A DNA stretch of 64,000 bases, taken from an uncultured Sphingomonadaceae bacterium (GTDB taxonomy: Bacteria; Pseudomonadota; Alphaproteobacteria; Sphingomonadales; Sphingomonadaceae). The translations under genes and the position numbers were made by a program. Positions 49,472-60,390 of the stretch are shown here, in pieces. The stretch covers positions 62,001-126,000 of the forward strand of contig CALLJS010000006.1 of assembly GCA_938050045.1 (NCBI GenBank), in the 5' to 3' direction. The number at the start of each line of letters is the position of its first letter. The stretch's first letter is position 1. The notes under the pieces were generated by a model. The model was not told the origin of the DNA. It searched no databases and was given only the letters and a program-made list of their open reading frames with translations.

Positions 49472-49993
49472 TTAGAATATGTCCATGACCGTATCGCGCG
49501 ATAGCATCGGCAATAATTGCAGCATCGCATCGCGCGCAATAGCCACGCAGCCCTCGGTTGCGCGCTCTGCCATAGGTTTTTCATGATTCCATAAATGGAA
49601 AAATATCGCACTGCCCTTGCCCGAAATCGGCGGATCATCATTATGGCCCAATATCACGATAATATCATAGAGTGGATCGTCGCGGCGCAAAGTTTCAGCC
49701 GAATGGCCATGCGGGAAAAGCACAGGCCGGTTATAGCTAGGATCGCCCAAACCATCTGACCATCCATCCTGTATCCGTGTCCATCGCCACGGTAATTGCA
49801 TAGCCTCTGGCACGGTTGAACGGTGCGGATTAAAGAGCGCAGCGCGCAATGGATAGCGGCCCAAAGGCGTGCAACCATCGCCTTCGACCTTATCGGCTGC
49901 GCGACATGTGCCGCCGCGCCCAATAGAGCATGGCGTTTCAAGAGCATCAAATCTCAATATCAAAGCCTTGGTATCAACGATGATTTTACCCAT
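49472..49993 (-). CDS. L,D-transpeptidase family protein
   Basis: A 173-aa YkuD-fold enzyme. The catalytic motif is HLWNHEKPMAERATEGCVAI, with the histidine and the nucleophilic cysteine in place. The early CSIGRGGTCRAADKVEGDG and GRYPLR are family features of the small L,D-transpeptidase group. No signal peptide is seen. Such enzymes cross-link or trim peptidoglycan (family knowledge). It follows the 33-bp repeat array on the same strand, so ribosomes and polymerase from ribA would reach it through that array. Confidence 0.88.
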   Translation of the reverse strand: MGKIIVDTKALILRFDALETPCSIGRGGTCRAADKVEGDGCTPLGRYPLRAALFNPHRSTVPEAMQLPWRWTRIQDGWSDGLGDPSYNRPVLFPHGHSAETLRRDDPLYDIIVILGHNDDPPISGKGSAIFFHLWNHEKPMAERATEGCVAIARDAMLQLLPMLSRDTVMDIF

Positions 49994-50005
49994 GCGCTAT
50001 TCCCA

Positions 50006-50383
50006 TCACAAATGAAACATAGCTGATGAGCGTTTTTGTTGCTGGCCATGCATAGCTGATGAGCGTTTTTGTTGCTGGCCATTCATAGCTGATGAACGTT
50101 TTTGTTGCTGGTCATTCATAGCTGATGAGCGTTTTTGTTGCTGGTCATTCATAGCTGATGAGCGTTTTTGTTGCTGGTCATTCATAGCTGATGAACGTTT
50201 TTGTTGCTGGTCATTCATAGCTGATGAACGTTTTTGTTGCTGGTCATTCATAGCTGATGAACGTTTTTGTTGCTGGCCATTCATAGCTGATGAACGTTTT
50301 TGTTGCTGGTCATTCATAGCTGATGAACGTTTTTGTTGCTGGTCATTCATAGCTGATGAACGTTTTTGTTGCTGGTCATTCAT
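50006..50383 (-). CDS. Repeat ORF: eleven copies of an 11-residue peptide
   Basis: A 125-codon frame made of eleven MNDQQQKRSSA units (three have N-G, one of them H-G) plus MFHL. Its first ATG overlaps the ribA stop (ATGA), so re-initiation is possible. The protein would be polar, Gln- and Ser-rich and without any known domain. Most base differences between units are synonymous or conservative, but whether it is translated is unknown. In the +1 frame each unit instead reads as ATG, nine codons and a stop. It may be a by-product of a noncoding repeat. Confidence 0.35.
   Translation of the reverse strand: MNDQQQKRSSAMNDQQQKRSSAMNDQQQKRSSAMNGQQQKRSSAMNDQQQKRSSAMNDQQQKRSSAMNDQQQKRSSAMNDQQQKRSSAMNDQQQKRSSAMNGQQQKRSSAMHGQQQKRSSAMFHL
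50021..50383. repeat. 33-bp tandem repeat array, eleven units
   Basis: Eleven head-to-tail 33-base units fill 363 bases between ribA and the L,D-transpeptidase gene. Units differ at only a few positions (GAACG/GAGCG, GGTCATT/GGCCATT, one GGCCATG). A ninth-to-tenth partial copy (AGCTGATGA) extends into the last codons of ribA at 50384-50392. A perfect hairpin, CTGGTCAT with ATGACCAG (50372-50379 with 50389-50396), sits at the ribA border and could have promoted slippage. Confidence 0.97.
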
Positions 50384-51432
50384 AGCTGATGACCAGTGCG
50401 ATCGCGTTTGGTGTCGAGATATTTTTCATTATGCGCATTGGACTCAATCTTTATCGGCACGCGCTGCGTCACAACAATGCCCTGCTCTTCTAACCCTACT
50501 ACTTTTTCGGGGTTATTGGTCATCAGCGCAACTCTATCGAGCCGCAATAATTTCAGCATCTTCGCGGCAATAGAAAAATCGCGCGCATCGATAGCAAAGC
50601 CCAATCGCACATTGGCATCGACGGTATCAAACCCTTGGTCTTGCAGGGCATAAGCGCGTAATTTATTGATTAACCCAATAGCTCGCCCTTCTTGGCGCAA
50701 ATAGAGCAATACGCCCCAATTTTGCGCCATTCGATCCAAAGCATGATGCAGTTGTGGCCCGCAATCGCACTTTAATGACCCTAGCACATCGCCCGTTAAA
50801 CATTCGCTATGAATGCGGGTTAATGGTGCTGTGTCATCGGGTGTGCCAACGATCAGCGCAACATGCTCGCTGCCATCGGCATCGCTGCGAAAGGCTATGA
50901 TTTGCGCGTCTTGATTGGCGACTATTGGCAATTTGGCTCGCGATGCAATGCGCAAATTATCGCTGTCTGAATAATCATCGACATCATCTGCGCATATATG
51001 CTGCGCATCAGCATCGGCGCAAAGGATTATAAAGGCTGGCAATAATCCAGCGTGGCGCGCCAATTCCATCGCCGCCAGCGCAGCCTTTGGATGTTTGAGC
51101 GCATGGGTGGTGAATGGCCCTTTCATCGGATAGCGCAAATCTAAGACTGGATCGGCAATCGCTATCGCACTGTGCGGTGATAGGGGCGCGCCAGTGGAAA
51201 GACATATGGGTAATGCAGTATCTGCCGCCGCAATTTGGTTGGTTATATTCAATGTTGCGGCGCGGCCCGATGATATGAGCATCTGATCGCATATTGCATC
51301 ATCATGCCACATTTCAGCCGCTCGCAGATAAAGCGCATTATCGATGCAAACACTCCACCCGCGTTTCAGCGCGTCGATGGCTTTCGCTGCTTTGCGCGCG
51401 CCATGATGGTGATTGGATGGCCTCTCGCTCAA
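50380..51432 (-). CDS. ribA: GTP cyclohydrolase II
   Basis: A 350-aa enzyme opening the imidazole ring of GTP, the first step of riboflavin synthesis. The C-terminal catalytic half has RIHSECLTGDVLGSLKCDCG with the three zinc cysteines, LLYLRQEGRAIGLINKLRAY and the LMTNNPEKVVGLE stretch. The N-terminal 150 residues resemble a degenerate RibB-like domain. TTG at 51432 is chosen because it overlaps the xthA stop; the frame continues 19 codons into xthA. The end TGHQL resembles the usual RibA terminus and its last codons lie in the first, partial repeat unit of the array. Confidence 0.9.
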   Translation of the reverse strand: MSERPSNHHHGARKAAKAIDALKRGWSVCIDNALYLRAAEMWHDDAICDQMLISSGRAATLNITNQIAAADTALPICLSTGAPLSPHSAIAIADPVLDLRYPMKGPFTTHALKHPKAALAAMELARHAGLLPAFIILCADADAQHICADDVDDYSDSDNLRIASRAKLPIVANQDAQIIAFRSDADGSEHVALIVGTPDDTAPLTRIHSECLTGDVLGSLKCDCGPQLHHALDRMAQNWGVLLYLRQEGRAIGLINKLRAYALQDQGFDTVDANVRLGFAIDARDFSIAAKMLKLLRLDRVALMTNNPEKVVGLEEQGIVVTQRVPIKIESNAHNEKYLDTKRDRTGHQL

Positions 51433-52223
51433 AAAGCAAACTCGCTGGTAATTGGAATATGGTCTGATGGTTTTTCCCAATCTCGGCAATATTCTGAGAC
51501 TTCATGCGATAGGACTTTGCTAAGCAAATCAGGGGTAATCCACATATGGTCGAGCCTGCGCCCACGGTCTGACGCGCGCCAATCCTTTGCCCGGTAACTC
51601 CACCATGTGAATAATCGTTCTGGATCTTTGATAAATTTACGCCCAACATCGGTCCAATTACCGGCGGCTTTAAGCGCATCCATAATATCGACTTCGATAG
51701 GTGTGTGGCTGACGACTTTGAGCAATTGTTTATGATTCCACACATCGCTAGGCAGCGGCGCAACGTTAAAATCGCCCGTGACTATCGTCGGCTTATCAAT
51801 GGTTTTTGACCATTGGATCATGCGGCCAAAAAAATCGAGTTTTTGTCCAAATTTAGGATTTTCATCGCGATCAGCAATATCACCACCCGCTGGAATATAA
51901 ACATTTTCAAGCCTTGCGCCATTGGGCAGAGCTACCCCAATATGGCGGGCCTCGCCATTGGCCTGCCAGTCAAATTTTTCTATATCGGTGAGCGCTATCT
52001 TGCTAAGCGTTGCAACGCCATGATGCATTTTTTGTCCATTGATGGCCATATGGACATAGCCCAACTGCTCAAACATTGCTCTTGGAAATAAATCATCTGC
52101 AACTTTGGTTTCCTGCAAACATAATATATCGGGCGATTCTTTTTTCAGAAATTCTTCGACAATGCCGATACGGGCGCGAACGGAATTAATATTCCAAGAT
52201 GTAATGCGAACTTTTTGGGTCAT
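51429..52223 (-). CDS. xthA: Exodeoxyribonuclease III
   Basis: A 264-aa AP endonuclease/3' exonuclease of base excision repair. The family sequence is intact: ITSWNINSVRARIGIVEEFL at the start, LCLQETKVADDLFP with the metal-binding Glu, VTGDFNVAPLPSDVWNH, and the end RRLDHMWITPDLL and SDHIPITSEF with the catalytic Asp-His. Its stop overlaps the ribA start, so ribA may be translationally coupled to it. Confidence 0.96.
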   Translation of the reverse strand: MTQKVRITSWNINSVRARIGIVEEFLKKESPDILCLQETKVADDLFPRAMFEQLGYVHMAINGQKMHHGVATLSKIALTDIEKFDWQANGEARHIGVALPNGARLENVYIPAGGDIADRDENPKFGQKLDFFGRMIQWSKTIDKPTIVTGDFNVAPLPSDVWNHKQLLKVVSHTPIEVDIMDALKAAGNWTDVGRKFIKDPERLFTWWSYRAKDWRASDRGRRLDHMWITPDLLSKVLSHEVSEYCRDWEKPSDHIPITSEFAF

Positions 52224-57732: not shown

Positions 57733-57888
57733 ATAAGCATTCCTCTTATAAATAATTCCATGCTAAACTCCGCATGACGCGCTATATCTGCACTTTTGAA
57801 TATTAACGATAGATGATTGAACGGATATTCTTGTAAAATTTGCATATTCAGATAAATCACAAAATATGAAATATATTTGGTTGCCCCA

Positions 57889-59196
57889 ATGACAATTTTC
57901 CCATGGCTAGATGCCGCCATTATCATGGCCCTCATAATGCTCAATGGCGTGTTTGCAATGTCCGAACTGGCCATTGTATCGGCGCGCACGGCCAAATTAA
58001 ACGCTATGGCAGAATCTGGCAATAAAGGGGCGGCCATGGCCATAGAATTGGCCAAAGACCCTGGAAAATTTCTCTCCACGGTTCAAATCGGCATCACTTT
58101 AATCGGTATTATTGCTGGTGCTTATTCTGGCGCAAGCCTTGGCGGCCCCGTAGCCGAGAGATTAGCCGCTCTGGGTATGGATGATTCTTTGGCGAGCAGT
58201 TTTGGCTTTGGCCTAGTGATTGGCATCACCACCTATTTTTCATTGGTCATTGGTGAATTAGTCCCCAAACAATTTGCACTGGTGGCGCCCGAACGTTTGG
58301 CCTCTATCATGGCGATGCCGATGCGCTGGCTTTCCATTATTGCGGCTCCATTTGTATGGATATTGGACAAATCTAGCGCGATAATATTTCGGCTATTGGG
58401 GTTGCGCAGAGACAGTAGGGTCGCATTATCGGCCGAAGAATTAAAAATGATTTTTGCTGAGGCGACATCCGAGGGCATTATCGAAGAGCATGAGCAAAAG
58501 GTGATTGCAGGTGTTGTGCGCTTGGCCGATCGCCCAGTGCGCGAGGTGATGACGCCGCGTACCGAGGTTGATTGGATCGCCGCTGAAGCATCGCTCGAAG
58601 ATGTTAATAGAGCTTTGCTACAATCTCCGCACACGCGATTGCCCGTCGCTGAAGCAAATGTCGATAATATTATTGGCGTTGTGCAAGCCCGCGATATTAT
58701 GCGATCACAGATTAAAGGCAGCACCACAAATATACGCACCCTAATGCGCCGTGCGACTATCGTCCCCGATCAATTGGATGCTATGGATGCGCTGGAACAA
58801 TTACGCAGTGCCGAGGTACCAATGCTGCTCGTTCATGATGAATATGGGCATTTCGAAGGTATCGTCACGCCCAATGATTTACTCACCGCCATTGCGGGCG
58901 AATTTGCATCCGATAGAGATATAGGAGCAGCCCCAGAGATTATTGCGCTAAACGATGGCAGCCGCATAATTTCGGGGGCCATGTCCGCAGATAATATGTC
59001 AGAAATATTGGGCATCAACCTACCTGAGGATAGAGATTATGCTACCGTTGCTGGCCATGCGTTGCATGTTTTACGCCACCTCCCATCCGAAGGCGAATAT
59101 TTTGTCGATCAGGGCTGGCATTTTGAAATTATCGATATGGATGGACGCAAGATTGATAAATTGCGTATTTTTCAGATTGAACCAAAAGAATCCTAA
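57889..59196 (+). CDS. CNNM/CorC-type transporter-associated protein
   Basis: A 435-aa membrane protein of the hemolysin/CorC (CNNM) family. A DUF21 transmembrane domain fills about residues 1-180 (IIMALIMLNGVFAMSELAIV, IGITTYFSLVIGELVPKQFA). Two CBS domains follow (about 205-330; REVMTPRTEVDWIA, LLVHDEYGHFEGIVTPNDLL), then a C-terminal CorC/HlyC domain. The family transports or senses divalent cations such as magnesium (family knowledge). ATG at 57889 is used; the frame extends four codons to a TTG. Confidence 0.9.
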   Translation: MTIFPWLDAAIIMALIMLNGVFAMSELAIVSARTAKLNAMAESGNKGAAMAIELAKDPGKFLSTVQIGITLIGIIAGAYSGASLGGPVAERLAALGMDDSLASSFGFGLVIGITTYFSLVIGELVPKQFALVAPERLASIMAMPMRWLSIIAAPFVWILDKSSAIIFRLLGLRRDSRVALSAEELKMIFAEATSEGIIEEHEQKVIAGVVRLADRPVREVMTPRTEVDWIAAEASLEDVNRALLQSPHTRLPVAEANVDNIIGVVQARDIMRSQIKGSTTNIRTLMRRATIVPDQLDAMDALEQLRSAEVPMLLVHDEYGHFEGIVTPNDLLTAIAGEFASDRDIGAAPEIIALNDGSRIISGAMSADNMSEILGINLPEDRDYATVAGHALHVLRHLPSEGEYFVDQGWHFEIIDMDGRKIDKLRIFQIEPKES

Positions 59197-59553
59197 GCCA
59201 AGAACAACGCCCCAAACAAAAATAAAGTTCTGAACAAAAATAAAGTCCCGCGCAAATAATATGGCTTTATAGGTCGGTAATAATAATGCCCAAAACCCAA
59301 GGCTAGCCCTAACAAACCCAAAGCTAGGCCCTAACAAACCCAAGGCTAGGCCTAACAAACCCAAAGCTAGGCCCTAAAAAATCCAAGGCTAGACCCTACA
59401 AAAAATCCAGAGTCAGCCTCTAGTTAGACGCGCGGACGCACCGTCAAAATGGCACTGAAATCTGGAAAAAAAGCTCTGTTGGCTATATTTATTGCCTCGG
59501 CAAAGCATTTTCTGCCAGAAATTTAAGCCATTTTGGCGTGCGCAAAATTTGTC
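59197..59553. repeat. Gene-free 357-bp spacer with degenerate 23-bp repeats
   Basis: Between about 59287 and 59396 lie five imperfect units of about 22 bases around AAACCCAAGGCTAGGCCCTAA, and just before them a doubled ACAAAAATAAAGT at 59216-59247. A 97-codon frame on the minus strand (59071-59364) runs through the repeat into the CNNM gene; it is hydrophobic, overlaps that gene and is probably not coding. The 150 bases after the repeat show nothing recognisable. Confidence 0.7.
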
Positions 59554-60390
59554 CTAACGTTTAATCTCTGATCCCAAAGAGCCATATTTTTTCTCAAAGC
59601 CTTTGACATCGCCTTTGCTGAGTAATTTGGCTTGGTCGACCCAATTATCGCGGCTGATACGGCCTGCAAAACTGCCAAGTTTAGAATCAACATCTCTCAC
59701 ATCAGCAGCCTTCCAATTGGCGATTTGATCGAATGATGTGACACCAAGCGATTTAAGCAAGCCATTTAATTTTGGCCCTACGCCTTTTAACAATTCCAAA
59801 TCATTTGGAATGACGGTTGGCGTGGCTTTTTTGGCGGCTGGTTTTTTGGCGGCGGGTTTTTTGGTAGCTGGTTTTGCTGCAGCCGCCTTAGGAGCCGCTT
59901 TAGCAGCCGTCTTCTTTACCGTAGAAGCGGCCTTGGTCGCTGATTTCTTGGTGGTGCTCGCCGCTGTTTTGGCGGTTGATTTTGTTTTAGATGCCGCTGC
60001 TACGGTTGCTTTTTTCGCCGTTGCAGCGGTCTTTTTTGCTGTTTTAGGAGCACCGCTGGCGGCCTTAGCCGTTTTCTTGGTCGCGCTCGCCGCTTTTTGG
60101 GCCGTCGATCTGGTCTTTTTCGCCGTTGATGTAGCCGCGCTTTGTGTTTTTTCGATCCCTGATTTAGCCGTTGATAAGCTTGTATCCGCTGCTTTCTTTG
60201 TCACATTTACCGCACCAGAGGCCGTTTTAGTGACTGTATCTGTCGCAGAATTGATAAGGCCAGAAGCCATGCCTGCATTATTATCATGGCTATCGGCTCC
60301 TGGTTTCGCCCATGCCCACCATGCTGTCAAAAGCCCAATCAATAGAGCTATCGCTAGCCATATCCAATTTTCTGCTAAAAATTCCATCAT
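59554..60390 (-). CDS. Membrane-anchored histone-H1-like protein with HhH domain
   Basis: A 278-aa protein with three parts. A single transmembrane segment (about residues 8-28, WIWLAIALLIGLLTAWWAW) comes first. A long Ala/Lys/Thr/Ser-rich region (about 55-195) follows, with repeated KKPAAKK and STAKK units like histone H1 tails. A helix-hairpin-helix domain (about 200-265; LELLKGVGPKLNGLLKSLG, FDQIANWKAADVRDVD) ends the protein. HhH domains of this kind bind DNA or serve in protein contacts. The likely orientation puts the tail in the cytoplasm. The start at 60390 follows GGGGGA by eight bases. It lies 112 bases after a 31-aa microprotein gene on the same strand. Confidence 0.85.
   Translation of the reverse strand: MMEFLAENWIWLAIALLIGLLTAWWAWAKPGADSHDNNAGMASGLINSATDTVTKTASGAVNVTKKAADTSLSTAKSGIEKTQSAATSTAKKTRSTAQKAASATKKTAKAASGAPKTAKKTAATAKKATVAAASKTKSTAKTAASTTKKSATKAASTVKKTAAKAAPKAAAAKPATKKPAAKKPAAKKATPTVIPNDLELLKGVGPKLNGLLKSLGVTSFDQIANWKAADVRDVDSKLGSFAGRISRDNWVDQAKLLSKGDVKGFEKKYGSLGSEIKR

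Follow-up and report, generated by a model that had tools for sequence, protein, structure and literature searches.

The DNA analysed, called the window below, is a stretch of 64,000 nucleotides from an uncultured Sphingomonadaceae bacterium. On its minus strand a tandem array lies directly 3' of a ribA-like ORF, running from position 50383 down to 50021, and is followed by a ykuD-like transpeptidase gene. The features of the locus are listed below in the direction of reading.

50380-51489 (ORF limits), minus strand: ribA-like ORF with a GTP cyclohydrolase II domain (Pfam PF00925, E 5e-59), stop TGA at 50380-50382.
50372-50396, minus strand: 8-bp inverted repeat CTGGTCAT/ATGACCAG; its loop contains the stop of ribA and the ATG that overlaps it.
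50380-50383, minus strand: ATGA, in which the ribA stop and the frame-1 start share 4 nt; this is the ribA/ykuD junction of the family.
50021-50383, minus strand: eleven 33-bp units, consensus ATGAATGACCAGCAACAAAAACGTTCATCAGCT.
50006-50383, minus strand: frame-1 ORF of 125 codons from the ORF list, (MNDQQQKRSSA)n followed by MFHL; ykuD, downstream of it, is in the same frame.
50083-50379, minus strand: nine complete frame-2 minigenes, each of ten codons and a TGA, each stop followed immediately by the next ATG.
49960-50082, minus strand: units 10 and 11 read through as one in frame 2, 40 codons and a stop, out of frame with ykuD.
49994-50020, minus strand: post-array tail, holding the end and stop (50006-50008) of frame 1 and then a 12-nt spacer with a TAG, after which comes the ykuD ATG.
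49472-49993, minus strand: ykuD-like gene, 173 aa, with an L,D-transpeptidase catalytic domain (Pfam PF03734, E 9e-13).

Repeat detection gave a tandem period of 33 bp with 11.4 copies and 97% matches (50018-50392), and eleven units were found within at most 3 mismatches of the consensus, a number set against zero in 100 shuffles of the window. The unit was not found elsewhere in the genome at up to 3 mismatches. The 11-copy array described in the earlier note is real and confined to one location, the copy number being that of a single assembly in 28 contigs. The last two units, 10 and 11, are the most divergent from the consensus. Every unit carries the motif ATGAATG, in which a start overlaps a stop and a second start stands right behind. 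The 12-nt end of ribA, CATCAGCTATGA, recurs inside the units, which bears out the likeness between the gene terminus and the unit end that had already been pointed out. A pattern scan of seven genomes, with the same limit of 3 mismatches, detected the unit in four of them and at the ribA-ykuD locus only.

Two further features were observed elsewhere in the window. A second tandem array with a 22/43-bp period (score 185) occupies 59292-59402; it lies downstream of a plus strand ORF (57877-59196) and takes in the start of a small minus strand ORF (59071-59364). On the minus strand, 59554-60390 encodes a protein of 278 aa, the middle of which is very rich in Lys, Ala, Ser and Thr and by eye resembles histone H1-like tails.

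The continuity of frame 1 and the overlap of its ATG with the ribA stop, both stated earlier, were confirmed by the 125-codon ORF and its 4-nt overlap. When a repeat measures 3n bp, an open frame across it is unremarkable in itself, because one open unit opens every copy. The transpeptidase ATG at 49993 is in the frame of frame 1, with a TGA and a TAG in between; in the window the direct overlap joins ribA to frame 1, and ykuD lies 378 nt further on, at +12 nt from the frame-1 stop. The minigenes lie in frame 2, the frame of ribA. The expectation that each unit would contain one stood for nine of the eleven units. A change from ATGA to ATGC where unit 11 begins has fused units 10 and 11 in frame 2, and the tenth minigene, having no stop, enters ykuD out of frame and ends at 49960. 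Nor is the minigene peptide constant, as the single reading MTSNKNVHQL had implied: residue 2 is either T or A, and residue 7 either V or A.

The hairpin noted at 50372-50396 does fold in prediction (-12.7 kcal/mol, z -4.2), and a hairpin enclosing the stop and the start is predicted at the junctions of all four species carrying the unit, with energies from -12.1 to -14.8 kcal/mol. Covariation lent it no support, one of its eight pairs changing on both sides, as was also the case in 233 of 500 shuffles. The predicted z of the whole-array fold (-5.3) is inflated, because shuffling destroys the repeats. Between ribA and ykuD no terminator-like site was found, and promoter-like sites numbered 6 as against 5.7 expected; the two genes and the array are presumably co-transcribed.

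Overlapping stop and start codons are very common in prokaryotes, and a 4-nt stop/start overlap is the usual signature of translational coupling by termination-reinitiation. A protein search with ykuD in 397 genomes of the family gave matches in 121, and 120 of these loci were examined, G291 being left out for its truncated contig. The end of ribA lies just upstream of the ykuD homologue in 106 of the 120 loci and is absent from 14. At 98 of the 106 loci the ribA TGA and a start codon share 4 nt, and the frame stays open for 20 codons or more or as far as the stretch extends; the start codons are GTG (64), ATG (18), TTG (13) and CTG, which was allowed as a start (3 loci). In 25 loci of a subset of 30, the ykuD motif is reached from a start codon in the frame entered at the overlap. 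When the window's own species, G042 and G043 are set aside, this ancestral overlap is present in 95 of 103 ribA-ykuD loci and so is the rule in the family. Since frame 1 starts exactly at this family-wide overlap, the array is a tandem copy of the ribA-stop/ykuD-start junction. The earlier proposal that the array grew out of the 3' end of ribA therefore stands as to the place, while the source has to be widened from the gene end to the whole junction. Direct repeats of at least 9 bases covering the stop occurred, in the stretch scanned, only at L045, L046, L047 and L093 among the 106 loci. At L055 and L057 the N-terminus of ykuD, which follows the ribA overlap immediately, seems to contain an internal in-frame duplication (VDT...VDT).

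When 148 related genomes were searched at the DNA level, the array or its unit was detected in four, the window's own included, all of the same genus. In the comparison of array length proposed earlier, the number of units varied by species (one genome per species): 11 in the window's species, 3 in G042 and 1 each in G043 and G037, so that the 11-copy state is found in the window's species only. In G043 the single unit shows as an 18-bp direct repeat, TCATCAGTTATGAATGAC, stop included, at a distance of 33; its frame 1 continues in frame into ykuD (MNDQQQRRSSV-MNDIIVDTK), and it has one closed minigene, the frame-2 TGA of which overlaps the ykuD ATG by 4 nt. In case of G037 the single unit gives a 15-codon frame-1 ORF that ends 12 nt before ykuD, and there is no closed minigene. 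The units of G042 measure 33, 33 and 31 bp, two full ones and a shorter third; a 34-codon frame-1 ORF ends 8 nt into ykuD, and it is frame 2 of the third unit that matches the ykuD frame. All four species therefore have a frame-1 ORF that begins at the ribA stop, fused to ykuD in G043, overlapping its start by 8 nt in G042 and ending 12 nt short of it in G037 and in the window. A reading in which the minigenes are the conserved element is not supported, G037 having no closed one.

The four species were paired by ribA identity: the window's species and G042 share 0.87, G043 and G037 share 0.89, and values across the pairs are 0.77-0.81. Their history is not that of a simple tree, because the stop-containing tail (49994-50020 of the window; L037, L035 and L036 compared) is common to the window and G037 and absent from G042 and G043, and the unit variants at positions 8 and 25 are common to both pairs. 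Across the pairs the 17-nt core of the unit is identical at 14-17 of 17 positions, as against 46-52% at pooled 4-fold sites (P 0.0023 to 1.5e-5 in four comparisons that are not independent); units 1 (one base off unit 2) and 3 (31 bp, diverged) of G042 did not enter this test. The last 33 codons of ribA have a codon-level conservation of 0.77 compared with a gene mean of 0.57, a value reached by 2 of the 331 stretches scored, this one included (column permutation P 0.0036). These figures point either to nucleic-acid constraint at and near the junction or to possible local recombination between the species. Selection at the protein level on either frame was considered and is not supported: the five variable unit positions fall on codon positions 1, 2, 2, 2 and 3 of frame 1 and on positions 1, 1, 1, 2 and 3 of frame 2, and show no preference for silent sites.

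At eight of the 106 loci ribA and ykuD do not overlap directly. In six of these (L093, L099, L124, L131, L133 and L148) a short ORF of 4-19 codons spans the distance from the ribA stop to a start in the ykuD frame, with overlaps of -4 or -1 at both ends; L071 and L168 are the two exceptions. The insert of L093, which belongs to another genus, is a 14-bp duplication of the ribA/ykuD junction. Shuffled spacers were bridged in 0 to 8% of cases per locus, which gives P 8e-9 for six of eight. Because L124 and L131 share a genus, as do L133 and L148, the inserts were also counted as independent events, and four of six were then bridged (P 1.2e-5). If an overlap is assumed at both ends of the insert, with an assumed frame rate of 0.28, the values become P 0.056 (4/6) and 0.0078 (6/8). 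The excess of bridging is thus strong under the shuffled-spacer null and weak under the null that assumes the overlaps. At L071 (G417, again another genus) a palindromic, REP-like insert separates ribA, which ends there with TAA, from ykuD, and a G-rich stretch just 5' of the ykuD ATG is a possible ribosome binding site.

The array is a real and recent-looking expansion of an ancient, presumably coupled junction. The explanation that we consider probable is slippage at this translationally coupled junction, which would have been tolerated because ribosomes were still relayed to ykuD. In the ancestral state ribA and a ykuD-type gene were joined by the 4-nt overlap and would have been coupled by termination-reinitiation. 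In the clade of the window the junction may then have gained the 33-bp unit, 18 bp of the junction being repeated around approx. 15 bp of filler, and the number would have risen to eleven in the species of the window, by slippage or by unequal exchange among the repeats. Since the unit equals 11 codons, frame 1 is open at any unit number, and since it stays open and its end is 12 nt short of the ykuD start, it could still deliver ribosomes from the end of ribA to the neighbourhood of ykuD. A ribosome that takes the second start of ATGAATG would make a ten-residue peptide and then meet the same choice again; the frame-2 minigenes would be a by-product, as re-entry into frame 1 should be feasible at each stop. 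The last step of 12 nt may be a weak one, because in published tests coupling was nearly gone at about 20 nt (PMC10666635). The number eleven itself is probably near-neutral.

The foremost alternative is plain tandem-repeat slippage with no translational role, in which a short direct repeat arose at the site by chance and the 33-bp period opened the frames. The restriction of 11 copies to one species, with 1-3 units in the relatives, would suit it, as would the lack of third-position bias in either frame at the five variable positions and the quasi-palindromic, slippage-prone sequence within the unit. Neutral slippage of the unit itself fits poorly, however, because the unit differs less between species than the 4-fold sites do (14-17/17 identical in the core against 46-52%). 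It also leaves aside that the continuity of frame 1 to, or near, ykuD was kept in four of four species and that ORFs bridge the unrelated inserts which other genera have at this junction. We regard this reading as possible but doubtful. A further reading, which goes beyond tolerated slippage, must be called unlikely: the ribA-ykuD junction would be under selection for the relay, with the bridging ORFs keeping the coupling, the 33-bp unit with its hairpin and ATGAATG double start would be a conserved restart cassette, and the 11-copy array would function as a start-stop ladder, its frame 1 gathering ribosomes for ykuD.

That the array is a copy-number tuner or a ribosome buffer, in which the number of ten-codon minigenes sets the transpeptidase output, is very improbable. 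Nine complete tandem stop-start minigenes, unit numbers that differ between species and a link between repeat length and expression described for a mycobacterial gene (PMC2734929) would speak for it. Closed minigenes are absent in G037, however, and number one in G043, and the frame-2 path of the window ends out of frame inside ykuD. Moreover, a relay calculation, made with assumed restart rates and not with data, saturates within 2-3 units; since frame-1 delivery barely rises past that number, eleven units should not tune much by this route, and the tuner suggested earlier is not supported in a form that acts through the minigenes. There is even less reason to expect that the frame-1 product, a 125-aa protein of 11-residue repeats, is itself functional: its frame is open and its ATG stands at the coupled overlap, yet it matched no Pfam family at E 0.1, silent changes are not favoured at the variable positions, and the ORF differs between the species, with 15 codons in G037, 34 in G042 and a fusion to ykuD in G043. 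An assembly artefact in the copy number, which the 28 contigs of the genome might suggest, is hardly credible, as the internal unit variants stand in a fixed order and the relatives carry the unit independently. A dispersed repeat or mobile element was also considered and is out, the unit being at the ribA-ykuD locus only, in 4 of 7 and 4 of 148 genomes searched.

The fate of stop-start junctions that gain DNA is rarely visible, and here it is. Slippage at a coupled junction, which we prefer, is set within a graded series at one junction: no unit in other genera, 1, 3 and 11 units in related species, and unrelated bridged inserts. The series makes both the selection for coupling and the tolerance of spacing testable. 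The array is of interest as such a natural series and not as a new machine.

Among known systems, the variable-number tandem repeats (minisatellites) share with the array the near-identical tandem units (11.4 copies, 97% matches) and numbers that differ between related species (11, 3, 1, 1); in contrast to them, the array is built on a stop-start junction, and the single-unit form is retained in related species. Of 14 overlapping stop-start gene pairs put to the test, 13 were strictly coupled (PMC6728339). The likeness of ribA and ykuD to such pairs lies in the -4 overlap of the 95/103 loci outside the clade, and the difference in the window is that the direct overlap is between ribA and frame 1, with ykuD at +12 nt past the frame-1 stop. 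Of the co-directed -4 or -1 overlaps that mark termination-reinitiation, ribA and frame 1 have the former, and the coupling itself is predicted. The ribosome termination structure, an mRNA hairpin at the stop codon, lies immediately downstream of the stop (PMC7518266), whereas the hairpin of the array junction straddles it and has the stop and the start in the loop.

Among titles and abstract openings from the full-text literature, a collection with few subscription journals, no comparable tandem array at a gene junction was found outside mycobacteria. The closest likeness is to the mycobacterial MIRUs, the original description of which is said to be that of Supply et al. in 1997. These elements insert at start codons, and their internal ORF is thereby coupled at -4 spacing (review, PMC12548453); they are 40-100 bp long and scattered over 41 sites (PMC2734929). 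In the latter paper the abstract states that longer repeats raise expression and a results passage gives lower values for the strains with 4 and 6 repeats, and the two do not seem to match. The opinion of the earlier note that no system like the array had been described is therefore not upheld: both have units at coupled junctions, a short ORF with a -4 overlap and a variable copy number (PMC12548453, PMC2734929). In the window the ribA stop and frame 1 have 4 nt in common, and in G043 the minigene TGA overlaps the ykuD ATG. The differences are as definite. The unit is 33 bp long, a multiple of 3, it comes from Sphingomonadaceae and not from mycobacteria, it was apparently made from the host junction, and in the seven genomes scanned it is found at the ribA-ykuD locus alone. 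Since it is not dispersed, the array is not a MIRU; judged by its description, it would nevertheless work like one. As a single-locus counterpart to the MIRUs from outside the mycobacteria, the array could show how such repeats begin.
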